Assembly (NCBI GenBank): GCA_008933995.1
Contig: WARS01000025.1
Location: 6,555,477 to 6,619,476 of the forward strand
DNA: 64,000 bases
Origin: Datnioides undecimradiatus
Taxonomy: Eukaryota > Chordata > Actinopteri > Lobotiformes > Datnioididae
Direction: 5' to 3'
Part shown: one piece after another, positions 2,140 to 63,747 of the stretch
How positions within the stretch are numbered: position 1 is the first letter of the stretch
Layout: every line of letters starts with the position of its first letter
Position numbers and translations under genes: made by a program
The notes under the pieces: generated by a model
What the model saw: the letters and a program-made list of their open reading frames with translations, nothing else
Databases searched by the model: none
Told to the model about the DNA's origin: nothing

Positions 2140-2381
2140 TCAGACCGTTAACTCACAGTCCTCAAAGTTGGAGAAACCTTTGTTGCCGTTTGTCTGATGA
2201 GGTGTGTCGTCCTGCAGCTTGGAAAGCACGTTCAGCACCTTTGTTTTCCTCTCCTCCATCTTTCTGTCCTTCTCTTCAAGACTACCCGGCCTCCCTCCTC
2301 CCGCTGAGGGCTCAACTTGGTCCCTCCACCCTGGATAATTGGACTCCTCCTCAGTGGGGCCCCCTTCATCCGTGCTGGAAC
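2140..2381 (-). CDS. c12orf42: c12orf42-like last coding exon
   Basis: 242 nt, phase 1 in, ending in TGA. Acceptor CTCTCTGCTCCAG. Encodes GSSTDEGGPTEEESNYPGWR, a charged helix-prone EEKDRKMEERKTKVLNVLSK segment, and ends SNFEDCELTV. An AATAAA sits three bases after the stop. Confidence 0.7.
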
Positions 2382-5300: not shown

Positions 5301-8300
5301 GAGACGTGTGGACACTTCACTGACATGGAACAGGCTCAGAAAAATGGTTTATCATTGAACATATTTCTGAAATTGATCCATTAAAGGGTCATTTCGCCTA
5401 TTTTACACCGGATCATTTCAGTTTTCTGGTCGATTCAGGGCAGTATTCAGCCTGTAAAAACTATGAAATAATGTCTTGTGTTGCTCTGAGGAAGCATTGC
5501 AAAGTATAAAAAAGTTGATATTTTAATGGCCACGATTTTGCACAGTTGCATTATGGGAATCGTAGGAAACATTGTTTTTAGAGTATGATAGATAGATGAC
5601 AGATAGCTCTTGGCCTTAAAAACAATAATATGGGTTTTTTAAAATGGAGTTACATGAAGTGAAGTGCAGAAGCTTTTATATCACATTGAACAGTAAATTT
5701 GATGGCCAAAAACAAAACAGTCTCCTTAAATATGCTGAAAAGCACATTTCGAAAATACTTCTCTGTGCATTTTTCACTACGAAGCCTGCATTTCACAGTC
5801 ATTCAACTGCTGATGTTAAAACTAGTTTAAAACAGCTTTTCATTCCCAATTACTGTATAAAATGCATAAATGTTCCATTTTTGCCTAAAAAATAACCAAA
5901 ATTATTTCATTTTTTACTTGTTTTCAGTATAAATACTATATATATTAAACCTTTAGTCCCTAAATATAAATGTAAATCTGCAGCTGCTCATGTGAAATGA
6001 TCCACTATTGTTTATGCAAATGGTGTCACAAGCCCATTTTCTCAACTTTCTCATATACATTTAGTCGTAATGGGGTCATTCCCTCCATTACTTGGGAGCC
6101 CTATTCAAAGACTGAACTGCTCGCACCTCCAGGGTAACCAAATCTCACCTATCCACACAAAGACATGCCACACACTGGGTATCTTTTGGAGACAGCGTGA
6201 CCTCAGGAGTGACCTCTCCACGCCCTGCTGATGACCCCCTCCTCCCCTCCCGTCCCTTTCCCCCTGAGTGTGACCATGCCTTTGGCCTCTAAGAGGTCAA
6301 AGTACATAAGCCATCACCGGGTCCCTGTGGGTGACATCTTCCCTGAGTTTGTTTAATTCCTACAGGGTAGTTAAACAGTTAAAGACTTGTTTTAAAATGT
6401 GCACGGTTGCATTTTATGGCTGTAGGGGATTTCATTCATGTCATTGTGTGCTATGACAAAAGATGTAGATTGTATGCATTTAACAATCTTATAAATCAAT
6501 CACTCTCTATGAAAAAGGGCATCTTAAATCATAAAAAGGTCAATCTTTCCTTTAACATATTACACATTAGAGTCAAGTTTTAGGAAAGATTCAAGTAAAT
6601 CTTAGAATTTCTTGCATCCAGTCCTGAAGTAGTACCTGCAGACTTTAGAGAGAGTGTTTATAAATGCAGCAGATTGCATGATCCTACAATTCCCATGATG
6701 CAACTCACTTGTTTAACCTTCATCTGCTTTGGGCTACATTTGAAAAGTCAAAAACACATTACGTTCAGTGTCCTGAACACTTATGTTCGACCAAGACAAG
6801 GAGAATCTCATAGTAGTTACTAGGCTACACACTTATGTAATGGTGGATGTTACAAACACAAGATGATTTAAATGCTGCTGCAAGGAATTGTGGGATGAAA
6901 CACACGAAAAGGGGTATATTTCCTCCATCACTGGTCAGATGAAGTGTTTCTCAAACAGGTAGAAGTGTTAGAGCTGCTCTGAAAGGCCAAGCTCAAAGGT
7001 GTGGGAGGTGGTCGACGTGTAATCAACCGCACAAATGGAGATAACGCACGTTATCTCTGCCTGGCAAAGGTGTGGTGGGAGGACCTTTCAGATGCTCTTT
7101 GGCAACTGAAAAGCACATTTCATCAGTCTGACCCCAGCAGGATCATTACGCCTGCAGGTTTTGTGGCAACTGATGTGAAAATGTTTCAGAGATAAATGGT
7201 CACTGCTCAGCCTGATCTACGGTTCCACCCGCATTCGCTCCCGGACACTACTTGGATCAGACATCACACATATCGCCGTGCCTTTGGTCCAAACGTTTAG
7301 CTGCAGCTCGGCCCCTCGGGTGCATCAATCTCTGATGTGATGGATGCGTTTGTAACATAGGAATACAACACGCCATGGACCATTAGCGTCAGAGAACAAT
7401 GACTGATACTGGACATCCGAGTCACGGGCGAGAACGAAGACAAAGCGTGATCACAGTCCGACAGATGTGCTCAAATGAAGACGGGAGGAAAACAAGACTC
7501 CGCTGTTAACTCAAGGGTGGCTCTTCATTTCCACACGGCGACAGGACTCCTGACCTTTTTCCTGCCCTTCTTTCCAGTGTTTGTGGTCGGTACAGTGAGC
7601 TCTACCTCTGAACCATCACTCATGAATGTACACAAGGCGGCCACACAGGTGAAGGTGATACTGGGAGCCAGCTGGCCCTAGTGAGGATTAGCGGGCTTAA
7701 GTGTACCGGAGGCAAGGGAACGCTAAACACGGCGCTGACAGTGAGGAGACAATGGCTCCTAATAAACCAGAGCTGACAGGGACTGAGTGGGCTTTTACCG
7801 GATCAGACGCTAATGGTGAAGACGGGCTCTTGTATTGATTAAGTATTGTTGTTATAGGCTCTTATGGTAGAGTGCCAGTTTTAACAGAGAGGTGATATGT
7901 CATAGCAGCACACACGTAGATCAAAACAAATACTTATTGTCTGGGCAGATTTAACAGGTACTGTACCTTGGTTGGACTTGCAGGGAGAATGGGCGGATCT
8001 GAACATGTCGTACGATGGAGTCAAGTCTATGATCCATGAAGACGGGGACCCAGAACCTCCTTCAGACTGATCCTGCAAGGAAACAGAAAGTTCACCCGCG
8101 CTGTGATGAAGTCAGTTTGCCACTGGCAGAAACTGGCACCTGGCTAGCTAGTGTTAGCCACCTGGCAGGAGCATACTGAATAAAGCAGACTCTAAACAAT
8201 GTTCACTAGACTTTCATGGCTTCACATCTCACAGCCAGAGATGATATCTCCTCAGCACACACTGACTGAGAGCTCAGATCAGCGTGCACTCACAGTTCCT

Positions 8301-11300
8301 GCAGCAGGTCTCCACAAATCACAACTACTCAGTTTATTGGACTATCACCTAAAGTGACATATATATTCCTCTTTAAATAAAGAAAACAATTTGCACATCA
8401 TGCAGCCCGAACTAAATCACTCCACTCGTGAGTAAACACTTCCTAGACATAAGATTTAGAGCACACGTTTACTGAGAAACGGCACAATGCCAAGAATATA
8501 AAAAAGACACTGAATCACGAAAAGTAATCAAGAAAATTCTCATTATTTTTGTTAAATTCAGTCATATTTGTTATAAATTTGATTGATTTCATATCTAAAG
8601 CAATGGTGTCTGAATTTAAATTAAAGCGAGTCACTGTAACAACCCACCAAAATGTGAACTCTACGAGACAAAGCTGAAATAATCATCCTGCAGAGCTATC
8701 TGACTAGTTAAACTGAGTTATCTTGTTGGTGTATTTTGACAAAAACACACCAAAACAGTAAAAAACAAGTTGTGTTCTTATGGACGGTTTATGTGTTCGA
8801 CTATTTCTTAGCAGGGTCCAGTGACTTTCTGACGTCTTTGGTGGTTGCCTGGCAACCTGTAGGCACCACATGACGCCAGCAATTAAATTTGACCCAGTAT
8901 CTTCACATGTGACTCGCTATGAGGAAACCTATTTCCCAAAATGTCAAACTATTGCTGTAAAGCTCACAAGGTTTTTATAACGCAGAACATTTCACTTAAG
9001 AACACTACAAATGAGCTTTGCACTGATTAAACATGCTCATAATGAAGAACTCAGAGCCAGCAGCTCCTCCCACCTCCCTGCTCAAAACATGCCACTGGTT
9101 TATCAGTGTCTCTTCTTTATAAATAATCCAGTGTGTGGACACTTGGTTCAGTGAGGTGCATTATGCAAATGATCATATGAATCCAGCTCCAAGCACTCCA
9201 GCTCGTCATTGTGGTTTGGCATAATTGCGGGGGGCTTATGAGTCTCATTCATGCTTTTCAGGGGCTCTCTCTCATCCGTCATAAAGGGGAGATTAATCGT
9301 AGATCACGTGGAGCACCTGCGTCCATTCCACTGCAGCCCAGCATGCACAAGCCCTGTTTACCCCCCTGACCCCTCACCCCTCAACCCCTGTCTGATCCTG
9401 GTGGTGGTGCATCCTCCAAAAGAATCCCACCGTGTCGGGCGTTTAGCCGAGCGTACCCCCCTGCGACAGAGCAATGAGCTGGTGTAAAAGCCTGCCTGCT
9501 CCCGTACAGTCAGGCCCCCCCAACCCTTCTGCAGCCCGTGACTGATTAACCACACACCTGCTGCACGCCGCGTGCCCTCTGTTATATTGTGTCTCAATTA
9601 TCAACAACAATTTGGCTCGTTTTACTGGAATGACAGTTATAAATACATGCCAGTTCAAGTTTGCAAAAGGGGGTCTTTGTGAGGGAGGGAGACTGTGTGT
9701 GCCAGGTTTGGGGTTATTGTCTGACCGGAGTTGATTCTTGAAGTTCTAGTGTTTGCTCACGTCAGGCTTTTAGGGGAAATCTGATAGATGAACGGAGGAG
9801 GGGGGTAGAGAGTGAAAAGCGGCTCCTCAAGGGGCAGCGGCACTCACCGATTTGTTTTCCTGGACTTTCCCTGCAGAGTCACACCTTTCAGAGATGCTGC
9901 CAGCTGTGAGGGGCCTCAAAACACCTGACAAAACCACACAGGACACAGTGTCAAGCTAAAGGGAGAGGAAGCAATTGTGTGTTTGCAGTTGCGGCACGGG
10001 CAGGCATGTGCGTCCATGCACGCGCGTACATAAGTGTTTGGCCTCCTGCGCACACTTACGTGCACTTCTCTTTTGTACTTGAGTGTGTGTGCACAGATAT
10101 GAGCAATGTAGTGTATGAGTTCCAATTATGGCTCTTAATCTCTGAGCAAATAATGGCAAAAAAAATGGAGTAGCAAAACCCCAGAGGAGCACCTGTCTAC
10201 AGAAGCGTGCCAGGTGCAAACATTGTTCTGGAGACACAGAGAGAGGAAAGACAAGCTTCCAGCAAACTCAGACAGATTTTCTCTTGTTGTAAACATTGGC
10301 GGCAGAAAAACAGAAAACCACAACCACAGAGTTCGTCCAAGTTACAAACAAAATAACATCTTTTCTCCGATAGTAAGCCATGCGCGACGTTTTGGTTTCA
10401 TTTGGAGATATTTCCAGCCACGCCCACACAGTGGAGGCCGGTGGAATTTCAATGATGTTGCTCATAATAATCATTAGACAGTGGCTTCAGTGAAAACTGT
10501 TCAGATCTGTGGAGTACAGCCAGAAAGAGGCCAAGGTATTCTTGACACACGCAAGTTTTTACAAATTGCAATCACAAAAAGTCTAAATGCAAAAGAGTGT
10601 ATTGGATTTATATAATGTATAATGGTCCACGCTGGCAGGTAGGACAAAAAGCTGATTTCAGACGCGTTGAATCGAACAAAAGAGCAGAAAGTTTCAGATC
10701 TCAAAGGCGGGATGATGATGAGGAAACTTCAAATCCTACTTTCTAACTTCTGCACACCTGCCCAGTCACACCTGAGCAAAAGGAGGCGTCGTTGTTGGTT
10801 TTGGGTGAAGCAAAAGGAGTTTGATATTGAACGTTGACGACGGTGTAGCAGGGATGTCTCCATTCCTTCACAGTGCATCACTATGGTAAACCTTGAAAAT
10901 GCGCAGGTCAGCCATTGTGTGTGATAGTCCTTCAAACTGAGATTGCATTTAATCTCTGTGTCATTCACTCTTTTCATTTTCTAGTTGAGAATCCAAAATT
11001 GAAAAATGAAGGAAATACTGAGGAAATCTTAAAAACTGGAGGATTTTCAGGAAGTTTCTGCTGTTTCTATTCCCGTTGCAGTTCACAAATACAGTGAGTT
11101 CACCAACTGTGCTGCACATTGAGCCTCATTGTGTATTTTCCAACATACTACACTGAAAAAAATGATGTTTGGGCTCATATTCATCACATCACATCAGGTA
11201 CTGCTCTTGTTTCACAGCAGAGTTCATTGCTAAAACTCAGAATGTGTGAACTCCTCCGAAGAGAAGAAGGTGACATGTTGCTGCCTTTTCTCCCTGCTCT

Positions 11301-11979
11301 CAAGTGTGGCCTCTCGGTGAAGTTACAGTACTTAACACTTTTGCATTCAGAGGCGGTTTGCTGGCTTTTTGTACAAACTTCTTAATCACATGTATCCCTG
11401 CACTTTAACTCTAACAGGGACCGCAAGGAGCTGAAGGTATTTACATTACATTAAGACAAATATCAAACCTGGACAAACCTATCTGCATGGCTACATACCA
11501 GCAGGGGTACTTGAGATATGTTCCTTCGCAATTTTGTTGAATTGAACCTTTAAACGTGTACGGCTTTTATCTCACTCTGCAATGTGTTATCAGTCTACAG
11601 ACAACAGACTCCAAACTAAATGACTTTCATGCACGCGCGCCTCTCAGTTTCTTATCCATTGTTATGATGCAGTGCTTGGTCTAAGTGTCTCCAGCTATCT
11701 TGGTCGGACTTTCCCGGGTTAATGATCCACTCCAGCGGTTTGATCTTTATTAATATGGCACATCCTGATATCCCAATAAACCTCTCCTCTGAGCTGCCAC
11801 ACCTTTGGGGGAAAAGCGGTTGAGAGCTCGCAGCGGCATGCCTGGGAGCAGATGAGAGGCGGTATCACAGCTCGTTAAAAAGAAAAGCCGCTCGACGCCA
11901 TAAAGGCATCGCTTACGCTCAAGGCCGGGCCGTGGACTGAGAAAACACACCCACAGTGTCATGTTTTCCCCCTGTCTGG

Positions 11980-12013
<34 letters not shown>

Positions 12014-15000
12014 GTCTGACTGCTCCTTGTTATTACAGGGACGGTTTTTGCTTATCAAACGATCTCAACTCAAACTGTCAGTGAGATTTGTCACAGCAGG
12101 TTTACCCTCAGCAAACTGAGATTGCTTGTCTGTCACGATTGACTTTTATACGATTCTCTCATAAAAAATTACAGGTAATGGAAATTGCAATCAATCACAG
12201 TTAAATCACAGACAGTTTAGATACTTGCCGACTGAATAAACAGGTTTCAATAAACCAAAACCGAACTGAACCCAATGCTGACTCAAAGATTATCCTCTCT
12301 GTGTGAACTTCCTCTTTTGGCTCAATTTCCACCTGGCATTAACAAGTTTCTTGTTGTGATTGTGTCCTGATGTTGTCGCTGGATTATGTTTAATCCTGGT
12401 ATTAAACTGTGGGTTTGCTGCTTTACCTCAAATACCAAGGATCACAAGTTCACTCCTTACTGCGATATTTCAAGTCGGTAAATTAACATTTTCTTGTTGA
12501 GAAATGGATTTTAGCTTTGCATGGAACAGTTTCATCACTTTAGTTTGGGAGTTTAGCTTTTAGCTTTGAGCTTTCAGTCTGAAGAAGGTAGCTGGTAGAG
12601 CTTTTCATCGTCATAAATGCATCACTTATTAAGAGGTATACCTGCTGAAGTTAACCCTGGATCATACCCCATGCTCAGATCAGACCAGTCCTGCACTGGC
12701 GAGAGCTCCTCTTCCCGACTATAGGGACTGTACGCGGTCTCCGGCTCCAGTCGGTCCAGGAGGAGCAGCTGGACCCTGGACAGGGAGCCTAGATTACCCG
12801 AGTCACAGCCCACCGTCAGTGCAGCCAGGCCGGGAGACAACTCTGCAGAAGGAGACAACAGGTCTGAAATGTATCCTGAAGCACCGTAGCACATTACAAA
12901 TAATAATTTAACCTCTGTAAAACTGTTTTTCTTTTGCATAAAAGAATCGTTTGGATAACTAAACAGACCACTGATGGTTTCTGCAAATTATCTGTAGCTT
13001 ATCCAGGCCTGAGTCCTGGTGGCAGCGGGTTAAGCATGGTAGTTCAGATGTTCCTCTCCTCAGCAACCTTTTCAATCTTCTCCTGGGATAACCCTGAGGA
13101 CTACTACCAGTTGGATGTACCCAGGAAACCTTAAGCTAAAGCCAGGAGGAACATGTATAGATGCCTGAACCACCTAAACCTACTCTTACCAACACAAAGG
13201 GGCAGTGGAATCGACTTCTGACCCAACTTCCAATAAATAAAGCTGGTAAATAAAGCTCATAATAAACAAATTAAAAGTCTGATCTTATGGTGGCGCTAGA
13301 TAAAGACATAAGATTGCCAAAGTTGCTGCAGTTCATCTTGAGTGGGACATGAATGTGTGTGCCAAATTTCATCCCAGTCGTGGGATGGATCGTGGTTGTG
13401 ATACTTTCTAAATCACCCTCATGGTGGCGCTAGAAGAAAAGTCACATGATCACCAAAGTGAGACGGATTCATCCTCTGGGTACCATGAATGTCTGCGCAA
13501 AGTTTCATGGACATGCTTGCAAAAGGTGTTGAGATATTTCAGTCTAAACAGCAAATGTCACTCGAAATGTGCCTCTAGAGGAAAGGTCACAAGATCACCA
13601 CAGCCAGGAGGATTCATCCTCTGGGTACCATGAACGTCTGTACCAAGAGTTTAATGGGAATTCATGTGAAAGTTTGCAAAGAAGTGGATCGAGAGAGTGA
13701 GTGAGTTAAAAGATGGATGGAAACATTTAAATATACTTTTAAGAAAATAGATGAATGGAAACAACTGTCAGGATATAAACTTCCTCGTGATGAACAACAA
13801 GTCCTAAAAGGTTTGAACATACTGTAAAGTATCCTCCCCTCCCCCCGTCAGGCTCCAAAGTTCTCATCGTCACACCCAATTAAAAGTGGATCAGTGACAG
13901 TGTGGCTCAGTGCCCATGCAAATCCCCGACCCCGCTGGCTGGGTGTGGAGCTGCCATTCCTCTCTGAGGGGATTTCACACAACACGCACCGCTGCAGGTA
14001 CCCAGCTACACACACACGCAACCAACATCCCAGAAAGCTGCACATAAGCCACCACATCCCCATAACACTGAAGTAGTTTTCACAGACAGAAAGTTTTTGC
14101 AGTTGTCTGCAGTTTGTGTTATGCAATGAGTCCAGCCCGCTCCCAGACACACACACACACACACTCATTCTCCCGTATGGTCTTTTCAGTTGGAACGTCA
14201 CACATGTGTGTAGGTGTGCTGATGTTTGGTAAAGTAATCCCTCAGGTGTGAAAAACGAACTGTTGCCTCGGCTGATAAATTAAGGAGTCGTTGAGAGGAA
14301 ATCCCAAGGATCACTGTGGGTGTAACATAATGTGGCGGCACACACTTTCGGTTAGGCCGGGTGTTAGTACATAATTAGCCAAAAGTAGCCACGAGATTGA
14401 AACACACTCAGCAAACACAGTGGCAGATAACAAATGACTAATCTTGTGATTAAGGTGTTGGACGCACAGGTTACCACCCACCGGGGGTCAGACGGACAGA
14501 GCAGCACGGACGCACTTTGAATTCAAATGCTTTGCGCCTTGGCAACATGAAGTTTGGGAAAAAAAAGTTTTAAAACCTCTGAGATAAATGGTTTTTAATT
14601 TATGGACTATCAGTAAACTTCAAACAGGAAAGACAAAAACAAGTCAGGTCACGATTCTGCAGTATAGCGTAGTTTGTTTGTTTTACAGCTAAGACTACAA
14701 CATGTCCTCATAATGCACAGGTGTAATGACTAAATTTTGTTGCTTTCTTATTCCTTTTAGTTTGTTTTCAGCTTTTTAAATTATTATTTTATGCTTTTTG
14801 CAGCTTTTATTGGACAACGACAGTAGGGTCAGGGCTAATTAACCCCGGGTCCATTTCAGATGGTTTTGGGATTTCCTTTTGGCCGCTTCTGGGTCTGTTT
14901 TTTAAACTATAAATGTACCTATATTGTGTTTTCCTCAAACCTGATTCATTTTAAGTTGGAAACAAACTGATTTATGTCTGCTTGTGAGGAGGAAATGGTC

Positions 15001-18000
15001 CTAGAGACAATATATGTCGCCCAGGTATCTCTTTTTATGCGGGCCACTAATCTCCATTACCACCTCCATTTCTGGGTCCCCACATATATTCAGAGATAAA
15101 ACATTCTTCACAACTGTGCCTCTTTGTGATTAAACCTGATAAGAGATCTGTATTTTGTTAATAAAACTGCTGCTCGGTGAAGCTTTAAATCAGCCTCCTT
15201 CTATACAGATGGAAATTGAGCTTCGTGCCAGTCTGATAAAAATCAGTCTGGAGCATTAGCTCACATTTGGCAGAGCATTCGGCTTGAGCCCTGGGTTGAT
15301 TTTATCATGCTGGGGTTGCCATGGCAGCGGTCACCCTGATCCGTCCACATCCTCGGGGCAAAGGTCGCAGGGGTCAGATGGAGGTCCGGGTCAAGCAAGC
15401 AGGTTAAACACCTTGTCAGGGATTAGCAGGCTGTGAGGGAGGTGGAGGAAGTCTTCATTGGCTAATGTCTCTTTCAGGGACTCACTGAACCACCTCCAGC
15501 ACACACACACACACACACATTTAGGCATGCTATCTAACACAGGCATGCAGACACACACATCGCATTTACTCTGCTTTTGTTGGCCAACATGGGCTGATAC
15601 AAAGACCTGACACAGTGAGCGCTCAGATAAGCCCATCCCTGTCTGTAACGAGGCAGCAGTCACAGAGGAAGGAGAGCATGTCTAATTGAGACATTACTGG
15701 GAGCCACATAGAGACGGGAACAACAACAAACAAACATGAAAACATTAAGAACAACACAATGATGGCGGTTATGATATTCAATCATATCATGTTTCGCATC
15801 AATCAGAGGATTCTGAGAGAGCAGACACTGAAAAGTCACTAGATGACTTTCCAAACTTTAACACAGTGCTCAAACACACGTATGAAATATATTATTTAAA
15901 TAAGATCAAGAGCACATTTAAAATGGAAAACTAAAAAAGTTTGAAATTCAGGTTAATTTCTGAAATTATCAGTCAGTTCATCAATTAGTTTGACAAAAAA
16001 TAAACATGAATTAATCACCAACTGTTTTGATAATCTATTGATTTTCACTGATTAGTTATTTTCTCTATTTTATATAAAAGTTTACAGTTGATTAAATAAA
16101 ACAAATATTTTTAAGACGTTACCTGTTGGACTTGGAACAGTGGGAATCATTTCCCATTTTCTGAGATTTAATAGATAATACAGTTTCTAAAATAGAGGAA
16201 AACTGCTGTGGTAGCATCCCCGAGAAGGCGTTTGAGTTGGATGCTAATGTTAGCGTGCTTCACATGCTCACAGTGGCAATTTCAACATGCTAATGCTCAG
16301 CAGGTATAATGTCTACCATGTTTATCATTGTAATGTAGCGTGTTAGCATGCTAACAAAAGCTAATTGGGACTTCTAACAAAGTACAGCTGAGACTGGCGG
16401 GAATGGTTTTTGCAGAATTTGGTACAATAGGACACGCGTTGCAGACTGGCTATTATAAACTTCCTGTGCATCACATCAGTTTCATGTCAGAGGATGGTTC
16501 AGTCATGTTCCCTTCAGGATGAACTGAACTCTGGTTCAGAACATGAATGTCCAAACCAGGTTTCATGTCAGCTGTTTCAATAGTTGTTGAGACTTTTCAT
16601 TCAAAGCCACAAAAGTGAATCCTCTGGTGACACTGGAGGAAAAGTCACTAAAGACAGTAGGGTTCATCCCCTGGGAGCCATGAATATCTGGACCAATCTT
16701 CATGACAATACAACAGTTGTTGAGACACTTCAGTCTGAGCCCAACATTAGCATCCCCAGAGCCACGCGGCTGTGTGTCACATGATGCGTATTTGTGTGTC
16801 TACCTGTCTCAGGTGGAGTGCAACCTGACGAGTCTGACGGCTGGTCCAGAGAGGCAGAGGAAGCAGACCGAGGGGCGATGGCCTCCAGCTCATCAAACAC
16901 ATGAGACTGACTGCAGCTGAGCTCGGAGCAGCGTGATGCTGCTGTACCACAGCGTCCTGCGACAGCACAGAGTGGGTGTATTGTGTTATGATGATAAACA
17001 CCATGATGAGGAATAGATGTAACTTTAATGATACACGTGGGCACAGTGGGTTGTTTCATTAGGAAATAATAGGAAACGGCAAAGAGGTATATGAATAATA
17101 ATAAAACAACTGGGAGAACTAAATGAGCACGCTGCAAGTGGGGCCGATCAGGACAAGAACAAGACAAATAGATTTACTTGTTTATTACTAATTTACTATT
17201 TTGATCACGGCAATATATAATATAAATTAACTAATTTAGAATAAATGAGGCTGAGAGAAATGTTTTTCCCAAAATGTGAAACTAATTATTAGAGAGAATG
17301 CCAGATGCCTTTAAAATACGAATGTACACTTTAACATTTATGCTTTTATAGCTTGTTTTTTCAATTTAAGGAGCAGATTTCTATCAATTACACAAAATTC
17401 TACTTGTTAACAGAAGAAATGTTCTTGCAGTACATCTAAAGCAAAATATCTAATAACCATTTAATTTAGAAATTAGCTCAATTTAGTGCATCAAAATTTG
17501 CATCAAAGTTGTGATTTCAGTCAATCTCGTGGATGTAGATTGGATTTTTAACCAATGAGATGTAAATAAATAAAGACTAACGCAAAAATCTCCTGGAGGA
17601 CGTTTTCTGTTGCAGCTATCAGGCTCTAAATCTCAGCTGGATGTTGTTGCGGGCTTAGTTAAAGCCTGTCCCTTCCAGGTTTTACACTATGACAAGTGGA
17701 AAACTCCCAACACAAAACGCAGGACCTCCATGAGTGAAGCCCCTCAGGCGAAGTACGACCGTCTGAGCACAGCGTTACAGTCAGACTTCAGGGCGAGAGT
17801 ATCTCACCTTCAATATGCACAGGGCAGGAAACTCGGCTTTAAGCTCTAATTACCAAAGACCTCACTCAAAGAAATGGTAAAAACTGTCAAGATAATCGCT
17901 AATTACTCATCTCCTCTCAAGCCATCAAAACAAAACTGTTTCACTCTGCCTGGTTTAGAAGTCGGAGGATTAGCGAGAGAAACTGTTTCACTGGGTGGGG

Positions 18001-21000
18001 TGTTTTTGTCGTCGTCCTGAAAGAGGCTTTTCGAGGCTTTTCTCACATTAGAAATGCAGAACAGCTTGGCCCCCGGACAAAAGGATAATATATACAGAGG
18101 CTCGAGAAGGAAAAGGCAAACTCAGCTCCTTCGTCTCTGGCCACAAGTATAAATGTACACATGAAGCCACCCTCACACAGTCAAGTATGTGAACAACGAC
18201 ACGCACACACCACTGCACTATTGTGCACTTGAGCGGCTCGGTGCTCTACTCAGGCAGACAATGGAAAGACTTGACTTGACACTTCAAAGCATATTGCTGC
18301 TGTCAACTCAGCTGTCATTCTCAGGAGACGGGTGCTGCACTGAGTTTGTCGGGGAGGTTAAGGGTGACTCCGGGTGGTGGTGGTGGGGGGGGGGTGGTTC
18401 GGTGAGTTTGATATGGCAGAATAAGACACAGACAAGGCCCTTTCTGTGCGCCTGTGGCCCTCTTTTCCTGGTCGCAGTGACGGGTTAAAAGGCCCTGAGT
18501 GGAGAGGCCAGGCCAGGTCGGGACAGTGCCCCGCTGCATTGTCAAGGACAGTTACACTCTGGAGATGTTGCTCAAAACAGGTCAGCTCGGGGTCGCTCTG
18601 TAGATTGTAAGGGATCTGGAAAAAACATGCAGGGGGTCAAAAAGGGCCGAGTGTGATGAGGAGACTCCCATCAGCCTCTGCTGCTAGAGTTAAGGTCACT
18701 TTATTGTCTCCCATCAGAGAAACTGGCCCTGGATCAGGGATGTTGCTGCATCCAAACCAAACTTCATAGTATAAAAAGTCCATCTTGAAAGAAAACACCT
18801 TTTAAATCTGACTCTTCAAAACTTCATAAAGGATTATCCTAGTTTATGACAACTTGGACCTGACTTTTAAAGTTTTAGCCATTATCCTTCATGGTAATAG
18901 TAACACTGTCCTCACCAAGGTAGTAGCTGGGACCTGGAAACACTGAGACAGGGTGGTTCTGTGCAAAAACTTAGCCAAATCAAGGGAAGTCTTACAAAAT
19001 CTTGGAATTTGCTTTCCCCTATTTGTGTTTCCATGGACCGTTGTTGCTTGTTTGTGGTTTTGCACAAAGCCCAAAGCGAGAAGTTGGTGCTTAAAGACCG
19101 AAACACTGAAAGATCAGGACCCGGCTCGTCTGACTCAGACTTTAGACGCTTCATACAAAGCTCAGCTTAGTTATAGACTCAGTTTTTGCAAAGCATGGAT
19201 TGATTTCAACAACTGTCAATGGTGGATTTTGAAAACTGTCCCAGTGTACATGAGGTCATGCTAGTATTAAGACTTATTGTGACCCATGAAACATGACTGT
19301 AAGGTAACTGTCTGCGATACAGGGGGCATGTTGCACCAGGTACAAATAAGACTAATACTACAATTCAGCAATGTTGGTTTGAGTAATAGATTTATGTATT
19401 TAAAGTATAGTTTTTTAGACTTATAAGAAGCAAAAACACTAAAATCAACCAGGAATGTGTCCTTCAACATGATTTACTGACCTCTGTTGATTCATAGTGA
19501 GGCCGGCAGTGTTTCAATATCATAACATACTGTAAACACTGCGAACATTAAACAGATAACAAATGTGTACGTGAATTGATCAATTAAAGGACTCATCGTT
19601 ACTTGTCATTGTCAAAGTGCACTGTTGCACCTGTTTTGTGTAGATTCAATGTCTTCAACTTGGACGTCAACGTGAACTTCGAGTCTGAGGAGAAGGAGGC
19701 TCGAGAGAGAAGAAGAGGCATCTCTCTATGTTACAGATTTATGCATAATATTTACAAATTATATCCAGTATCAACTTTAAATGCTCTGTGCTCTGTGGTA
19801 AATTTTCTCCTTTAAGGCCCCAGTTAAAGAGAAACTGAAACAACATGTGCTTTCTGTAGTGGTGAACATATCCAGGATTATTATTTGGGACACTTCACGT
19901 GTTTTTTGCCTCCAAATAAAGTAGTTTGGACGATCTAGATAAACATATTGCAACCTATCTAATGGCTTTAGTGTTCCTGTGACTGTTGGGCTTCACTGTG
20001 AGCGATGTTCCCAGATCTCAGCATAACAGTGTTGTCATAACGATTAGGAATGAAGGCCAAAACTACAAAAACAAACCCGAGCTGTAATAAACCAAATTTA
20101 TCCTTTGTGCTTTACACGCTGCCACAATGAGGCCACGTTGAGCTCGAGTTGCCCCCCGTCTGCGGTGAAATAAATGAACCAGTGACACTCGCTCTGTGTC
20201 TGCCGTGAAGAGAACAGCGTGCTCCGATACAGCACGGGCCCTCCTGCCGTACAGCACCACACAGACAACAGTAGATGTCTCTGATAGAAAGGAGAAAATC
20301 CCTACACAATTTCCACATTGTTTGCTTTCTTTCATAAAGTTCCTGGAGGAGTCAGATGTCACTGGCCCTGTCCTTTATCCCCATTGGGAACGGTAAATTA
20401 GCGTCCGCAGGAAAGCCGCGGAGGTATTCTATTGTGGCGGCCGTGCTCAGTGTTCTGCCGTCAGCGAGCGGTGGTCAGTGTGGATTTATGACCATCGGCT
20501 ACACGTCTCCCTCTCAGAGCCGAGAGAATAGCCAAGGCACGGGGGAGCTGAGGCTGAGAGGCGCGGCACACGAGGTAGGCACCCCGACTTCTATTGTTGG
20601 GGCCCCACGCCTTTGAACGGGGAATCAAACGGTACCAGCTTTTCATCAAAAGCCCTCCTTTCTATTGCTGATTTAGAGGAAAAAGAAAAGCTTTCCACGT
20701 TATTTATTATGGGGTGGGAGGAGGTGGGGGAAAACAGGCTGACAGCAATGCTTTCACAACGCGTTGATGGGGGCAGGAGCATCAGAACGTCTCACTATGG
20801 CAGCAGGCTTTGAATGCTCTGTGTCTGGCCAAGTCTCTTTGTCTACGGGTGGATGTCCAGCCATGTTCCGGACAATCAGGCTCCTAAGAACGTGGGCAGG
20901 AGTGTGGCGCCCGGGCAAGGAGGAGGCTGTGAACGGCCCATATGTGGCCCAGCAGAGCTCATTTCTCACCTCTGACAGGGGATATTGGAGGCAGGACAGG

Positions 21001-24000
21001 CCAACGGTGAGACTCTAGACGAGTCACCGACGTAGAAGGGGTCAGGTTTGGTCCTGACCCTGAGCGGGGAGTGGTGTTCTGTGGACTTGGGCAGGAAGAC
21101 CAGGTCGTGGAGGGGAAAGTCATTGTAACAAGGCGAGGATCAGAGTCCAAGGATGGGTCGAGACCAGGTGCATCTTGGTTGAGATTCTCTGTTGTTGTCG
21201 TTGTACTTTTACGCCGGCTAAGAGGTTTGTCTGGCTGAGGAAGGACCCCTGATCCTGGACGAGGTGAGAGGGGTTTGGTTTGGCCAAACACTGGTTCGTA
21301 GAGTGGAGGGATGGTTGTCACAGTGTCGATGGACGATTGGCAATGGTCAGATCCTGCTGGAGGATAGGAAGCCAGCGGTGGAGATGGCTGGAGTGGCAAG
21401 AAACAAGCCCTGCTTTCTGGGTCTGATTCCATGACATCTACTGCAAAATGACAGTGGGAAATTAGAAGGTAGCTTCATAATTACATTTTAGATTATCAAT
21501 TATCTATAAAACAATCAACAATCACTAAAACTAGTGATTACTGAAGGGGCCTACAGCTAGTTCTTAGTTTTACCAGACAGGGCGCTGCTCCTGCCACTGG
21601 CGAGGTCAGTGCTCCGGCTGAACAAGCTGGAAGGAGGACGGCTTAAGTCTGATAGAGACTCGCGTGACACCATGGAGACAGATGATGGTGAGCGCTCTGG
21701 TCCAGCAGGCCCAGGATGAGTGATGGACACCGCAGCAGGTTGTGGCTCCATCCCCTGAACTTCAAAGTGTTCTTGTGGAGAAGAACGATGGTTGGAGGGA
21801 GATGCAGGTGCGGAGCTCGGCTTGCTCAGATGTCCTCCAGGATCAGGGAGAGGGGTGTTCAGGTGGGGAGGTGTTGGGTTGATGGTGGATGCTGGTGGAG
21901 TAGCAGGGAGCGGAAGACAGGGAACAACAAGAACAGAGCGTCGTCCTGCAATCAAACCCTCATTCTGCACAACAGTTCTTCTTCTTCTGTCTGGTTTGTA
22001 CGGTGGCCCTGGAGGTCAGAACACGACAACATGTCAGAAAACACAATGGATTATGGAAAAGATTGGACAACACTACTTGTTTGTGATTGGACAGAATCTG
22101 GTAATGTCACTTCCTGTTTCTATTGTGTAGCAGTGATGCATACTACTCTCCGCAGTGCCACAGCATGGATTTTAACCTGAGTTTGAAAGGGAGTACTTCA
22201 ACAAAGGACATTCATGTGATGAAATTACCAATGTGTTATTAACATATCATGTTATTAAAATGTCCTGAATATCCCTGAAAGCATGCTCGGAAGAATTATG
22301 ACTGACAAGAAGTAACGGCTACTCCTCAACAAGTGACGTCAGAGGAGTCCTGAAGCAGGATTTGAGTTTAGGAAGGTAAGTGCAAGGTTTGACCCTGGGA
22401 TTTCAGGGTTACGATGGCGGTTCATGTCTCACCAGGTCAGAACATCGTCATTGTAACTCAAGCAGGTTATGTTTGAGATAAAAGAACGGTGCATATGAAG
22501 CAACGCCCACTGACCAGTCAATACTCTTGGAAAATGGCCTTGTTATTTATAGACGTCCCCTTAGGATCGAGATGTTACCTTCAAGAAATAAAAAAATGTA
22601 CTTATATCCACAATTAAATTCAAAGTGACCCCAACAAAGCCACTTTTCACTGCTCAACATGTCAGAGGTCGTTTTCAAAACTAGCCAACGTCTGCTCGTG
22701 ACATTCTCGTTCCCACTTTACTCGGTCCTGGGGCAAGCATTTGTTTCCCTGCTGGGTGGGTCAGCCCGCTAACAAAGGCAGCGAGAAATCGCCCTGCTGG
22801 AGCAGCTGCCTGTTTCCAAACTCAATATTCACAACAGTAATCAGACCGGAGGGCAGGGGAGGTTGTACGTATACATTCAGTCTTTCTTATAGGCGGGAGA
22901 TGGCAGAATATTATGTCATCGCAAACATGCAAGTGTATAACATTCATTTTTATAAAATGTATAAAAGACTTAACTAGCATGTTATGCTAATACAACAGAA
23001 GACCAGAGGCATGTTGGCGCCTGTAAAGGGACGACCTGGTGTCAGAGCAGTGGACGATTTCTCATGATCTCTCAGAAACATTAATTGTTTAATACATAAA
23101 ATAGTCAAGAATGGTCCAAAGAGATGGATTTAAATGGCTCGTTATGTCCAAACCCAACAAAGTTTAGTTTACAAAGATATAAAACAAGTTTAATTTTGCT
23201 TGGGAGTAGCTGAAATTAGCAAAGTTCGGCCATTTTCCTTTGATAAACGACTACAACAATGACTTGATTAATCATTTCAGTGAAGCCATACAGTGCATCC
23301 ACTAATCCATTTCTAAAGCACTTGTAGCACTGTTTTATACATCCGTCAGTCTTCCTACCACACTCATTATCTCAGCTCCTCTTTCTTCAGAACATTTCCT
23401 TTCATCCCTCTGAGATTCTCCTCCACAAACATCAACTCCATCCAGCGCCGCCCATTTCCCTTTCGCCTTCTCCATTCTTCCCCCCTGTGCCTTTGCACAC
23501 CCCTTCCTTTCTCTCTCCTCCTATTTTTTTGTTGACCACTGAGAGGGTGTAAGTTTGTGTGTGAGTGTGTGTGATGGGGGGGGGGGGGGGGGTTGTGTCA
23601 GACAATCTGCTCTTGTTTCCTGGGGGTCTGCCGCCGAGAGGAGTCAGCACAGGAGGATAAAGAGAACGCACTGGAGAGCACATTTCTGCACTGCCTCCTC
23701 TTACAATGCCCCGCCATTCCCATCTGTTACACATACTCGCGCGCACACGCACACATACATGTACAACAAGTGTGCGTGAACGGGTGCATGCGTGTGCGAG
23801 CTGATGTGCATATGAATGACATGTGTTAGAGCGCAAAGCCAAGGCGTAGGGCGCAGCACGTTTCTTCAGGGAGCAGGGTTAAGGGCGATTGTGAGTGAGT
23901 CGACCACCATATGGTAGAATAATTAGTATTAGACCCCAGTGCTGAGAAATGCCCCCCCAGCTGCCCCCTCCTCTGTTATACACACACACCGCAGCATGGT

Positions 24001-27000
24001 GAAAGCAGTGCCCTGCTGTGGAGCTGAGGTGTGTGCGCTGGGAAAGATGCCTTCACATCAGAGGCTGGGCTCTGAAAGGAGCGGCAGGTCTCCCAGCCCC
24101 GGGCCTTTCACTCCCAGCAGAGGACCACCAGGAGGGCGGCGCTGTGGGCACTTCCTCGCCAGAGAGGAGATTTGCACTTAACCAAACACGACCGCAGAGA
24201 GAGATTAAGAGCTAACGACGAGCCCGGTGGCCTCTACCTCCACTGCTCCAAGGGGAGGAAGAAAAGGCGAGAAAACTTGTTAATGAGCAGAGCTGTGCAG
24301 TCAAAGGAGCCAGTGCCCTCCTCCTGTTGTAGCTGTGATGGTGTGAAAGCACCAGGTGTTTGGTTGATAAGCCTCACCCTCCAGGGTTTGTGTCTTCGGG
24401 GCAGCCAGAGTGTGTGTGTTGGTCGTGTTCCCCCGAGATGGAGGCTGCGGTCTGGACCTGGTGCTCAGGAAACAAGGAGGTCTGAGGTCCTCAGGATGAG
24501 CTTTCATGTGAGACAGGAAACGTGGACACAGCAAGGGACGATGGTCTGGGCGATCGTGGGCCTGGAAGACAAGTAAACAAGAAAAGCTCTCAGTAAGGTG
24601 ACCTAAAATCCTCTGAAATTACATAATACACAATAAATGAAAATGTACTGAAAGAAATGAATAACAAAGTAAAATAATAATAATAATAACAACAACAACA
24701 ACAATTATAACGATAATAATCATAATAATGAATAAATTAAAAATAATAAAATAATAAGATAAATAATAATAAAATAAATATATAATAAAATAAATACTTT
24801 TAAAAACAAAAAAGAATAAACAAATATTTTAAAAAACATAAAATAAAAATAAGTAATTAAATAATAAATACCAAAACTAATTAAAAGATTTTCAAAAAAT
24901 ACAATTAATATGTAAGTCAACAGAAAATAAATAAAACAATTGAAAACAAATTAAAAAATATTAAAAAAAACAGACAATTTTAATGTAGTTTTGCACAAAA
25001 TTTGCAAAAAAGACTATAAGTCTATAAGAACTATACAAAAAGAAATTATGGAACAAAAAGGTGGGATTGCATTCTTCTGTAATTTAACTTGTCTGATTAA
25101 ACAAGCAAGACAAAAACAACAAACAAGAAAAACAAACATTGTGCTAAGGAGGTCAGGGCCATTAGGTATATAATATTTATCCACATCAAAAGCTCATTAA
25201 TAAACAGTTTTATTGTATTTGTGATACCAGTATATATTGGAAAACACTGAAAATATGTGGATCAATAAACAAACTAAATGTCTGGAGGAGCTTGTGTTTG
25301 TGGAGGAGGATTCAAATGATGCACGGTGACACCACTGCCCCCTTGTGTTCACCAGACAGACCACACCTCCTCTTCTTCTTCTCCGGGACAAAAAGTAACT
25401 CCAGCTTTCTCGTCTTACGCCCACAACCTTTCTCCTCCTTAAAAGAAAATTATCTCGAGGGCGATCAACCTCCTCAGAGTACACTGTCAGGACACGGTGG
25501 ATAAAAGCAAGCAGGACGGTCAATATTGGAAATGTGGAGGGACGGACGGCTGCCTGCAGCACGCCGGCCTCGGTGCCGATGACTCATTCAGTGGCCTTTT
25601 ACAGAGCAAACAATTGTAATAGATGGCCCACAGACTCGGGTCTTTATTTGACTTGGATTTAAGCGTCATGTAAAACAAAGTTCAGCTCCTCACCCATTTA
25701 ACACACAATAAAAACAAACAGAGAATGCCCAGATGCAGCATCTGTCTGAATACAATGATGAACCAGGAGACCTTCAGACAGATAGACAGATAAAAGGGGA
25801 GAAAGGGAAGGGGAGAGGGGGGAGAAAGTGGGGGAGGAAGGTGGGGTCACTGTCTGTGACTCACACAGGGAGGATCAGCTTTTAAATCCCTGCACCATCT
25901 CCACTGATTCTCTCTTCTCAGATCTGCAGGCTTTAAAGATTTGCATTCTTGTGATGTAAAGAGGGAGAAGTGAGGTAGAAAAAGCAGAACAAGAGCCGGT
26001 GACGGGGGCCTTTCTCCTCCTCGCTCCTCTTCCTCCCCTACGGCCTCCTCATTACCTGTCACTCAGGCCCGTCAAAAGAGCTGAGGAGGGCTTTGTGAGG
26101 CTCGACTCGGGCCGGTGTCATCAAACCCGTGACCTTCTGCAGAGCAGGTCTGGGCACGACGGTTGAGCGTATGTCTGTGTGATTACAACCCACGCAAAAG
26201 CTCCTTTAATGCAGCCATACACGCGAGCAGGATGACACAGCACAGGACAGGGCCGCGTGTCCTTTTGAACACGTTGATGTTTCTTATCACACACATGGTC
26301 ACACTGCTGAGTTTTCCATCCCCTGAAGAGCAGTTTACACCTGCTGAACATACACTAAAAAATGACGCGGCCCCTCTTTATTACTTCCCCTCGCTTTAAC
26401 AACCCTTAGATCAACTTTGTGACTGATTTTGATGAACTTTTAAAACTTAACTAAACCTCTTTTAACCCGATTTTATTCTCATCAGTCTTTTTCCAGTATT
26501 TTTGTTTCATTTACTGCCATTTTTATTCATTTCTTCCCTCATTTCAAGCACTTTTAATTACCTCTGTGTTTGACAGGCGACGTACGAATAGGCATGATTT
26601 GTTTTCCTGTTATTCGCACATCTGGATCATTATTCACTGATTTCAAGTTGTACTATAAAATGGCAAATTCAATCTGATGAAGCCCGTGTGATTTGACTGA
26701 AAGCTCCAGAAAAGCTTCCAAAACAACCTTTTAATGATGTCGTTTCATCAAACCTGGGTTTTATCCTCTCGGGTGAAGCTGATGGAGAAAGGATCACAGG
26801 CTGTACGCGAACCCAGATGTTTGACCAACTTGTTCAGAAGACAATCACAAAGACAAACAGCAATTTTAATTAACTTACATGTAAAGTTGTTAATCTCTCT
26901 CCACTCGAGTGTCCTTCTGTTTCAGACTTTGTCCTATTTTCGCTCCCAGATCTCACTGTGGATCGCCAAAACTATAAAAATAAGAACTAAGTCTGTTGTA

Positions 27001-30000: not shown

Positions 30001-30193
30001 CAGCGAGCGTCTTTGTCTGCCGACTTTACTTGTTTGTTTAACCAGAGGCCAAGACAGGAAGCCAGCCCACACAACTCTGCTGTCCCCATGGCAACCCCAC
30101 TGTTAATTGTGGCACATCCACTCCCAGACTCTTTTCAGCAAAGGGGAGAGGTGGGGACTTTTGAGTGTTGGAGGAGAGAAAGAAGAAGAAGAG

Positions 30194-30242
<49 letters not shown>

Positions 30243-31498
30243 TCTTTTTAACTGTTCAAGGGAAGGCAAGAAAATTTGGGTTTGCTTCATTTTTTAATAA
30301 TAATAAGTTTAATAATGTTTTGCTCGTTTGTCATTCATCATGGACGGTTCATGCTTGTCATTTCCAATGTTTGATACCCTTTCACTGTTTTCAGTCATTG
30401 TCAATTGAATATCTTTGGGTTTCAGACTCATTAACTGTAAAATTACCTGACGTCACATTGGAAAACTGTACATGGTTCTGAAAGACCTTTACTCAGAAAC
30501 CCCAATATTCATTGAAATGTCCCAATGGACTAAAAACCCAATTATCCACAGACCTGTTGATCTAAGAAAACACTCTACCTGCAGTTTTGATTCTTAATGT
30601 CTTAGTGTACTTGGGCTTGTAGCAGAGGACGAAGCCATGAAACCTCAGGCCTCATGGTAACAATGGTCAGGTGACCTTTTTCATCATGGTAACAATAATA
30701 ACTTTGTGAAACAGGCACCAAAACCACTTGTTTAGGTTAGGTTAGAGTTAAAATACGTGTAGTGGTTGCATCAGGGAGCTATGTCCATAAGCTGGAAAGT
30801 CTTTATATCTGGAGCAATGAGACTTCAGAGTGTTGGACAAGTGTTTTTGGAGTCATTGTCACGTATCAAACCACAAAACCAAAAGTAACAAAGGAAAAAT
30901 ATTGGTATGTCTTAAGAATTATCATACTATACAAGCCATAAATCAGTCCAATGTTCACGATGACATGATTGCCAGTTTACTGAGGGTAAATTATTTGGGC
31001 TTTAGTTCAGTACAGTTCAGTAGTTGTCTTATCATCTACAAGCAGATGTCCAGGTAAGCACACTTCATTACACCTGACTATATAACATCAGCTGCTGTAG
31101 GACTGTACTGCATTCCTTGGCTCAAACCACTGTCTTCCTGTTTAGTCCTGTAACAGTGCAGCTCCCTGTGTACAACTTCTTTTTGTTTTGACTCTTGGGG
31201 AGCCTTATTTGTGAATATAACTTGCTCTCAAACACAGACTCTTACAAAGCAACTAAAGGGTGTTTTCTCACAACACATTAACAGGTGACATTCATCAGGA
31301 TAAATGACCAATTTACAATTAGCAGTTATATTAGTTGCCTGGAACATTAGTATGAACTATATGTAAGAGTGTTGCCTGTTATTATTTAGTTTTGGTTTTG
31401 CTATTAGGTTCAAATGGTATTTGTGCACTCACAGTGTACTGGTAGGTTCCTCTGTCCCACAGTGTGGCTTTGCTGACGAAAGACACATAAATGGGTCC
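2140..31498 (-). CDS. c12orf42: C12orf42-like protein, 8 coding exons, 5' end not found
   Basis: Uncharacterised protein family; I assign no function. Minus-strand exons join as 31498-31433, 24561-24378, 22008-21574, 21440-20970, 16956-16804, 12842-12642, 8059-7967 and 2381-2140, all GT-AG. They give 1845 nt, 614 residues plus stop. Identification rests on two boxes that match human C12orf42 as I recall it: KATLWDR (human SATLWDR) and CPRFLSHMK (human CSRFINHMK). They are separated by 17 residues in both, across an intron here. The rest is Pro/Ser/Thr-rich and low in hydrophobics, with no transmembrane segment or known domain, so it is probably disordered. Human C12orf42 is about 360 residues, so the fish protein is much longer. 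It ends ELTV, compatible with a class II PDZ ligand. The initiator Met must lie upstream of 31498. It is divergent from pah, as expected for this neighbourhood. Confidence 0.65.
2382..7966 (-). other. c12orf42-like intron before the last exon
   Basis: 5585 nt. Two ZNF143-like CTACAATTCCCATAATGCA sequences lie at 5547-5565 (minus) and 6683-6704 (plus). No exon or transposon recognised. Confidence 0.6.
7967..8059 (-). CDS. c12orf42: c12orf42-like exon, acceptor uncertain
   Basis: 93 nt as drawn, phase 1 at both ends, donor AAG/GTACAG. Encodes GGSGSPSSWIIDLTPSYDMF then RSAHSPCKSNQ. The stronger-looking acceptor (TTTCCTTGCAG, exon start 8072) would put a TGA in frame after the previous exon. I therefore used the AG at 8060-8061 (TCTGAAG), 13 nt downstream. 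The alternative is an unseen small exon in the 4.6-kb intron. Confidence 0.5.
8640..8880. repeat. Fragment of a dispersed repeat (possible GCTTAGC-family interior)
   Basis: Contains GACTATTTCTTAGCAGGGTC and GTGGTTGCCTGGCAACCTGT. I associate these with longer copies of the same dispersed percomorph repeat, from general knowledge and not from a second copy in this window. GGTTGCCTGGCAACC is itself a near-perfect palindrome and resembles an RFX X-box (GTTGCC-N-GGCAAC). Confidence 0.4.
9150..9300. promoter_or_regulatory. Candidate conserved non-coding element with octamer motif
   Basis: Contains GCATTATGCAAATGATCATA (octamer ATGCAAAT at about 9163) and GGCATAATTGC. Its even base mix and lack of simple repeats set it apart from the neighbouring intron. 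Purely a sequence impression. Confidence 0.25.
11981..12010. repeat. (CA)15 microsatellite
   Basis: Fifteen uninterrupted CA units. Confidence 0.95.
12642..12842 (-). CDS. c12orf42: c12orf42-like exon, acidic
   Basis: 201 nt, phase 1 at both ends. Acceptor CTCCTTCTGCAG, donor CAG/GTATAC. Encodes ELSPGLAALTVGCDSG, a leucine-rich SRVQLLLLDRLEPETAYSPY segment and ELSPVQDWSDLSMGYDPG. It is the most hydrophobic and tryptophan-bearing part of the protein, so the likeliest to contain a short folded or binding motif. Confidence 0.65.
13280..13685. repeat. TTCATCCTCTGGG repeat, about three tandem units
   Basis: Three successive copies of a roughly 130-bp unit, each beginning TGGTGGCGCTAGA or a variant, then a TTCATCCTCTGGGTACCATG core (13467 and 13612; diverged at 13331), then a GTTGAGATATTTCAGTCT block where present. 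Confidence 0.6.
14147..14164. repeat. (AC)9 microsatellite
   Basis: Nine AC units in an intron of the c12orf42-like gene. Confidence 0.9.
15500..15519. repeat. (AC)10 microsatellite
   Basis: Ten CA/AC units; another ACACACA follows at about 15550. Confidence 0.9.
16230..16780. repeat. Composite GCTAA + TTCATCCTCTGGG repeat
   Basis: Module A (16230-16380) is dense in GCTAA/TTAGC and TTAGCATGCTAAC. Module B (16590-16765) has GTTCATCCCCTGGGAGCCAT (16662) and GTTGTTGAGACACTTCAGTC. The same order recurs at 44255 and 56195. Confidence 0.6.
16804..16956 (-). CDS. c12orf42: c12orf42-like exon, Cys/Ser-rich
   Basis: 153 nt, phase 1 at both ends. Acceptor GTGCTGTCGCAG, donor CAG/GTAGAC. Encodes GRCGTAASRCSELSCSQSHV then FDELEAIAPRSASSASLDQP. 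Its 3' intronic flank runs into a GCTAA-family repeat (16230-16780). Confidence 0.65.
16957..20969 (-). other. c12orf42-like intron (20970 to 16956)
   Basis: 4013 nt. Contains a G/T-rich run at 18377-18396 and a GC-rich possible regulatory stretch at 20380-20720. No exon recognised. Confidence 0.6.
20380..20720. promoter_or_regulatory. GC-rich candidate enhancer with SOX- and TCF-like sites
   Basis: Contains CTATTGT three times or near-matches (about 20429, 20591, 20661), CCTTTGAAC (20608) resembling a TCF/LEF site, and CpG-rich sequence. It lies in the intron just downstream of the 20970-21440 exon and has no coding support. Confidence 0.25.
20970..21440 (-). CDS. c12orf42: c12orf42-like exon, largest, Pro/Ser/Thr-rich
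   Basis: 471 nt, phase 1 at both ends. Acceptor ATTTTGCAG, donor AGAG/GTGAGA. Encodes VDVMESDPESRACFLPLQPS, a PLYEPVFGQTKPLSPRPGSG segment with repeated S/T-P sites, and a run of five threonines. No domain recognised. Reading through the donor hits a stop three codons later. Confidence 0.7.
21574..22008 (-). CDS. c12orf42: c12orf42-like exon, Pro/Ser-rich
   Basis: 435 nt, phase 1 at both ends. Starts GPPYKPDRRRRTVVQNEG, with an RRRR basic patch, then proline-rich sequence (TPPASTINPTPPHLNTPLPD), then Ser-rich sequence ending RSSALSG. Acceptor CTGACCTCCAG, donor GTAAAA. Only 133 nt of intron separates it from the next exon. Confidence 0.7.
22009..24377 (-). other. c12orf42-like intron (24378 to 22008)
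   Basis: 2369 nt. Contains a G17 tract at 23576-23592 beside pyrimidine-rich DNA (23440-23525). The flanking exon phases (1/1) match, so no exon is missing here. Confidence 0.65.
23576..23592. repeat. G17 homopolymer
   Basis: Seventeen G in a row after a GT-rich stretch. Confidence 0.9.
24378..24561 (-). CDS. c12orf42: c12orf42-like exon, CxRFxxHMK box
   Basis: 184 nt between acceptor TTGTCTTCCAG and donor GTGAGG. Phase 0 in, so it joins the previous exon exactly; phase 1 out. Encodes AHDRPDHRPLL, then CPRFLSHMKAHPEDLRPP, which aligns with the human CSRFINHMK region. The remainder is Ser/Thr/Pro-rich and ends LEG. Confidence 0.7.
24602..24990. repeat. AT-rich low-complexity tract
   Basis: Almost entirely A/T with degenerate AAT, AAC and AATA units, including (AAT)n then (AAC)n near 24675-24705. 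It lies just upstream (in + coordinates) of the 24378-24561 exon. Confidence 0.85.
25792..25846. repeat. Polypurine tract
   Basis: About 55 bases of G/A with only two pyrimidine interruptions and several GGGG runs; could form a triplex or G-quadruplex. Confidence 0.8.
27846..27864. repeat. (AC)9 microsatellite
   Basis: Sits within a longer CA-rich stretch starting near 27790. Confidence 0.9.
30196..30240. repeat. (GT)22 microsatellite
   Basis: The longest dinucleotide run in the window, preceded by a short GAA-rich stretch (30179-30195). Confidence 0.95.
31433..31498 (-). CDS. c12orf42: c12orf42-like exon, ATLWDR box
   Basis: 22 codons between acceptor TTTTTCCTTGCAG and donor GTGAGT, phase 0 at both ends. 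Encodes GPIYVSFVSKATLWDRGTYQ plus YT. The KATLWDR box matches human C12orf42. It has no in-frame ATG, so at least one exon lies further upstream. Confidence 0.7.

Positions 31499-49906: not shown

Positions 49907-63747
<13,841 letters not shown>

Follow-up and report, generated by a model that had tools for sequence, protein, structure and literature searches.

The window analysed in this work is a stretch of 64,000 nucleotides of the fish Datnioides undecimradiatus (bases 6555477-6619476 of contig WARS01000025.1, here C472, in a 581-Mb assembly). The window, together with the DNA to its left, carries a minus-strand gene which, judging from sequence comparisons, is likely the fish orthologue of human C12orf42. 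Exons were re-derived from the minus strand. The full model spans C472:6541674-6591468 and includes 15 coding exons and 14 GT-AG introns, with continuous phases, for a protein of 895 residues. Ten of the 15 exons lie inside the window (35992 to 2157); the other five are found left of it, at distances of up to 13.8 kb. Coordinates refer to the window for x1-x10, and to the contig for x11-x15:

x1, 35825..35992, minus strand: ATG at 35992, residues 1-56, donor AGG/gtgagt
x2, 31433..31498, minus strand: residues 57-78, GPIYVSFVSKATLWDRGTYQYT, ATLWDR box (KATLWDR)
x3, 24378..24561, minus strand: residues 79-140, contains CPRFLSHMK, 17 residues past LWDR
x4, 21574..22008, minus strand: residues 140-285, Ser/Pro-rich
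x5, 20970..21440, minus strand: residues 285-442, conserved PVLPPISPVRG box at its end
x6, 16804..16956, minus strand: residues 442-493
x7, 12642..12842, minus strand: residues 493-560, ELSPGLAALTVGCDSG...RVQLLLLDR box
x8, 9848..9924, minus strand: residues 560-585, located via teleost homologues
x9, 7967..8072, minus strand: residues 586-621, located via teleost homologues
x10, 2157..2381, minus strand: residues 621-696, terminal NFED, donor ACT/gtgagt
x11-x15, C472 6547344-6547414, 6546891-6547001, 6546584-6546681, 6542842-6542911 and 6541674-6541925, minus strand: EF-hand-like tail, left of the window

The gene is real, well beyond chance as far as alignments can tell, because in tblastn comparisons four teleost proteins match all 15 exons consecutively along the minus strand, and because the number of proteins to which an exon peptide aligns, among the 121 retrieved for the fish set, ranges from 37 (x1) to 115 (x11, x12 and x15). 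The weakest tblastn matches are those of x2 (E 2e-5 to 7e-5) and x9 (E 2e-7 to 3e-4). The low count of x1 is probably due to shortened records and to divergence; compared with the N-terminal exon of homologues, this peptide shows identities of 75-82% (P0003, P0013 and P0024) and 58% (P0004). Median exon identity across the 121 proteins is lowest for x4 (51%) and highest for x11 (92%), and exons x11-x15 encode the best conserved part of the protein (86-92% in 114-115 of the 121 proteins). In the 40 kb to the left of the window the exon following x10 restores FEDFDFLAKYCIFSQEKLAEYKRAFEA; next come EDSDGDGYISCLQVLLALK..., ILEMVDF... and EFMRSL..., and the last exon ends with NPLDDSGNL and the stop.

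An earlier note on this DNA, made from the sequence alone, had joined eight exons into 615 codons. The AG and GT borders of the minus-strand exons, and their in-frame joining from the acceptor at 31498, which precedes GPIYVSFVSKATLWDRG, to near 2157, were found again. The extent of the gene had been underestimated at both ends. Start exon x1, revealed by teleost homologues, had been left out; nine exons, rather than eight, reside between 31498 and 2157 (no exon list had been given); the proposed stop, a TGA at 2142-2140 on the minus strand, is in frame but intronic, located behind a consensus GTGAGT donor and beginning 15 bases past the last exon base 2157. The shorter model was rejected, since homologues run on past its stop, and five more exons lead to a stop after residue 895. 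Two other candidates were discarded. The x7 acceptor at 12875 was dropped in favor of 12842, homologues reading (T)ELSPGL at this point; a charged, exon-like open stretch within intron 9 (minus strand, 4716-5021; KLRKLQDRLGSGETEMVQAEISRVL...) has a misfitting acceptor phase, and was aligned by none of the four homologues tried. No RNA family reached gathering scores in Rfam.

A search with the C-terminal part of the protein had 197 hits at E<=1e-3. Those listed, 120 in number, are fish proteins (P0107 is nameless) of 449-1133 amino acids, and 99 have lengths between 750 and 1000. These proteins (P0001-P0120), likely orthologues of the gene, show 60-92% identity where they align to query residues 500-789. 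C12orf42 occurs in no visible fish protein name among the matches listed. The suspicion that the gene could easily be annotated as unknown was borne out: most of the fish proteins listed are "uncharacterized" or "hypothetical", and some records (P0001-P0121) are misleadingly named mucin-5AC, mucin-17, FLO11, histone-lysine N-methyltransferase 2D (KMT2D), hyphal wall protein 1, proline-rich protein 36 or C6orf132. A few fish records bear the UniRef name "EF-hand domain-containing". Similarly, the protein had been said to escape domain searches, and no Pfam or NCBIfam family matched a frame of 594 residues resembling the one first proposed; extended by the missed tail, the same frame gave sub-threshold EF-hand matches only. 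In a catfish record (P0099, Pangasianodon gigas) the tail is joined to PF13358, presumably a transposase domain, and the fusion is possibly a gene-model error.

The C-terminal region of about 200 residues shares 65-71% identity with its counterparts in five proteins, from turtle, alligator, amphibian and bowfin, and the combination of head and tail is common to fish, amphibian, turtle and crocodilian proteins. In the AlphaFold model of a teleost homologue the helices of the tail are arranged in two EF-hand-like lobes. The predicted first lobe contains a paired helix-loop-helix fold, and superposes on calmodulin; the second follows the helix-loop-helix order at residues 302-387 of P0121, a part barely covered by the structure-comparison rows. 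Foldseek returned no match under E 1e-3 in the PDB, and the gathering scores of the Pfam EF-hand families were not reached (at best 21.3 bits against 30 for PF13499, and 20.3 against 25 for PF13405). When P0013 was folded at full length, the head boxes were not predicted with confidence (mean predicted local distance difference test score, 41). The first loop of the tail reads D-x-D-x-D-G-Y-I/L-S-x-x-Q. In 119 proteins, 24 of 144 being excluded by the anchor pattern, Asp is found at positions 1, 3 and 5 in 119, 117 and 118 cases, and Gly at position 6 in 118. Position 12, canonically Glu or Asp, is Gln in 117 and Glu in two. The tail differs from calmodulin, centrin and troponin C, all of the EF-hand superfamily, in having Gln at loop position 12 and other loops which look degenerate, and in being the end of a long protein.

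The relationship to C12orf42 had been proposed in the earlier note on the basis of two motifs. The distance between KATLWDR (exon 31433-31498) and CPRFLSHMK (exon 24378-24561) is indeed 17 residues, with a 6.9-kb intron between the two exons, and the orthology is supported here by a stronger route, via profiles, bridging turtle proteins and the side of ASCL1 on which the gene lies. Two further searches were run. In one, a C-terminal stretch gave 204 matches, and the 120 listed include 21 tetrapod records (three from alligator, the others from turtles, frogs and a caecilian) and the bowfin; three turtle isoforms among them are named "C12orf42 homolog". In the other, human C12orf42 was compared to candidates restricted to about 261-831 amino acids. 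It retrieved 74 proteins of 267-537 amino acids (median 330), all from placental mammals and all featuring Pfam PF15380 (DUF4607); within this size range the human query alone reached no turtle or other non-mammal at E<=1e-3.

The link is provided by a turtle protein, P0139 (Lepidochelys kempii, "uncharacterized protein C12orf42 homolog"), which bridges fish and human since the head boxes (ATLWDR, 17 residues, CPRFTAHMK), a pass for DUF4607 and a tail of the fish type reside in one chain. Of seven proteins scanned for PF15380 (cut-off, 22 bits), only P0139, at 23.3, and gibbon P0145, at 456.8, gave a match. The fish protein, which was not matched at E<=1, differs from P0139 in this respect, and the arm between boxes and tail has diverged; the tails of the two are 65% identical over 193 residues.

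A profile built solely from placental proteins matched reptile, amphibian and fish sets. The turtle scored 51.8 bits, the alligator 34.6, the caecilian 27.8 and the fish studied here 14.1. Among 1584 decoys, shuffled or reversed, the highest score was 6.9, a value surpassed by 81 of 144 non-mammals and not by the other 63. In hhalign, where E-values refer to single comparisons, the 74 placental proteins matched eight reptile records (E 2.7e-14, 166 columns), 11 amphibian records (E 2.7e-11, 130 columns) and 25 fish sequences (E 1.6e-8, 43 columns). Searched for with a strict pattern, ATLWDR and CxRFxxHMK are 17 residues apart in this fish. Both boxes were detected in 19 of the 74 mammals, always at spacing 17; in 78 of 122 proteins of the fish set, this fish included (58 at 17, 20 at 16-21); and in 13 of the 22 tetrapod and bowfin proteins, 12 at 17. 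The 74 placental C12orf42 proteins share with the fish protein the two boxes, their distance and the location on the 3' side of ASCL1. They are much shorter than the 895 residues found here, and lack both the EF-hand-like tail and the PVLPPIS box.

As to the neighborhood, ascl1 is a single open frame encoding an HLH domain on the plus strand (C472 6535965-6536621), which ends about 5 kb from the 3' end of the gene; the minus-strand gene therefore sits on the 3' side of ascl1. In human, a breakpoint lies 86.5 kb downstream of ASCL1, and C12orf42 is located distal to it (PMC5765657); the human gene, too, is thus on the 3' side of ASCL1. Beyond the 5' end of the fish gene, exons of pah (RVEYTEEE..., TVEFGLC...) are found on the plus strand at 59660-61900 of the window; in the PDB they match phenylalanine hydroxylase best, at 192.5 bits, tryptophan hydroxylase 2 scoring 173.9. 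Human PAH is on the other side of ASCL1 from C12orf42, so that the gene order differs in the two species. To the left of ascl1, a minus-strand open frame at C472 6530650-6530958 resembles itfg2 (Pfam Itfg2, E 1.3e-19); human ITFG2 presumably resides on the other arm of chromosome 12.

A profile of the tail found all 144 non-mammals, and reached at best E 0.97 among the 74 placental proteins. The comparison covers these placentals among mammals and, among other vertebrates, fish, amphibians, turtles and alligators; mammals may be present among the 84 matches beyond the 120 listed of 204, and mammalian forms longer than about 831 amino acids fall outside the range covered. The turtle tail is 91% identical to that of alligator, 89% to that of caecilian and 65% to that of this fish. 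Head identity is 62-67% between turtle and alligator, whereas among placentals (91 pairs from 14 of the 74 proteins) it has a median of 48% and a minimum of 34%, which suggests a fast-changing head in proteins deprived of the tail. Loss of the tail likely took place in the lineage leading to placental mammals, the remaining arm evolving rapidly thereafter, and human C12orf42 looks like a tail-less, fast-changing relic.

The reading which we hold to be rather probable is that of a C12orf42 orthologue of 15 exons and 895 residues, in which a predicted disordered arm and an EF-hand-like tail act as a largely calcium-independent tether. A long arm rich in Ser, Pro and Thr would be followed by a module of about 200 residues with two predicted lobes, the first calmodulin-like. 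The tail would clamp an amphipathic helix of a partner largely without calcium, as apo-calmodulin or myosin light chains do, and the conserved boxes of the arm (ATLWDR...CPRFxxHMK, PVLPPISP, ASLxxGC...RLxLLDH) may dock other partners. A calcium-insensitive, light-chain-like grip of the predicted tail is preferred, as the only loop with calcium ligands has, in almost every protein compared, Gln for Glu at position 12, and the other loops look degenerate. That the tail of the same gene is a genuine calcium sensor, in which loop 1 binds calcium weakly, opens the first lobe when calcium rises and switches partner binding, is possible, though we are inclined to doubt it. Near-invariant Asp at positions 1, 3 and 5 and Gly at position 6 in 119 proteins would be odd in a loop without metal; yet, Gln occupies position 12 in 117 of them, the EF-hand cut-offs of Pfam were not reached, and a Glu-to-Gln change at this position in calmodulin weakens calcium-driven opening.

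Two further explanations are very improbable. Two neighboring same-strand genes, one for a C12orf42-like head and another for an EF-hand protein, might have been fused in the model, given that head and tail evolve at very different rates, that 74 placental proteins have the head alone, and that intron 10 is 10.2 kb long. Annotated teleost, turtle, alligator and amphibian proteins, mostly gene predictions, carry instead both parts in one chain, and the 10/11 junction is phase-continuous and rebuilds FEDFDFLAKYC as in homologues. We would give just as little credit to an unrelated gene with N-terminal boxes similar by chance. The direct match between mammals and fish is short (43 columns), DUF4607 does not match the protein of this fish, and the single human sequence reached no non-mammal; but turtle proteins bridge both ends, decoys remain at 6.9 bits or less, the 17-residue spacing is the commonest in all three groups, and ASCL1 is a neighbor on the same side.

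The literature on C12orf42, DUF4607 and EF-hand was searched as well. No paper was found on DUF4607, or joining C12orf42 to an EF-hand tail, the only co-mention being a sheep array table in which the words belong to different genes. Papers naming C12orf42 along with zebrafish do not, in their accessible parts, concern a fish C12orf42. C12orf42 belongs to a set of seven testis-elevated "missing" proteins detected in human sperm, with two peptides (PMC6356071); it is strongly upregulated by BMP4 and BMP7, among other genes, in breast cancer cells (PMC3229454); it is named in a hearing-loss gene study as carrying a selection signal in humans (PMC8594068); and a table entry for a schizophrenia locus lists it in one row with PAH and ASCL1 (PMC6906185). 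The tether likely acts in the male germ line, a judgement based only on the detection of the human protein in sperm. C12orf42 introns with schizophrenia variants are reported to be contacted by the ASCL1 promoter (PMC10648210). This, combined with the conserved neighborhood, suggests that the gene may also host ASCL1 regulatory DNA, and has probably been kept beside ASCL1 for this reason, irrespective of the function of the protein. A more tentative proposal, to which we lean slightly less than to its denial, is that human C12orf42 is what is left, after loss of the tail, of an ancient vertebrate adaptor with a calmodulin-like, calcium-free clamp (fixed Glu-to-Gln), of which placentals kept the arm, and that the locus survives mainly thanks to the introns regulating ASCL1.

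The connection with ASCL1 is important since schizophrenia signals map to C12orf42 introns (PMC10648210), and a protein seemingly devoid of its most conserved domain would be a weaker candidate than the regulatory DNA which it may host. An orphan human gene gains a full-length relative whose domain is foldable and can be tested, and a gene is identified behind database names such as mucin, flocculin and histone methyltransferase. Which partner the tail may grip in fish, frogs and turtles, and why placentals manage without it, become questions which can be tested.
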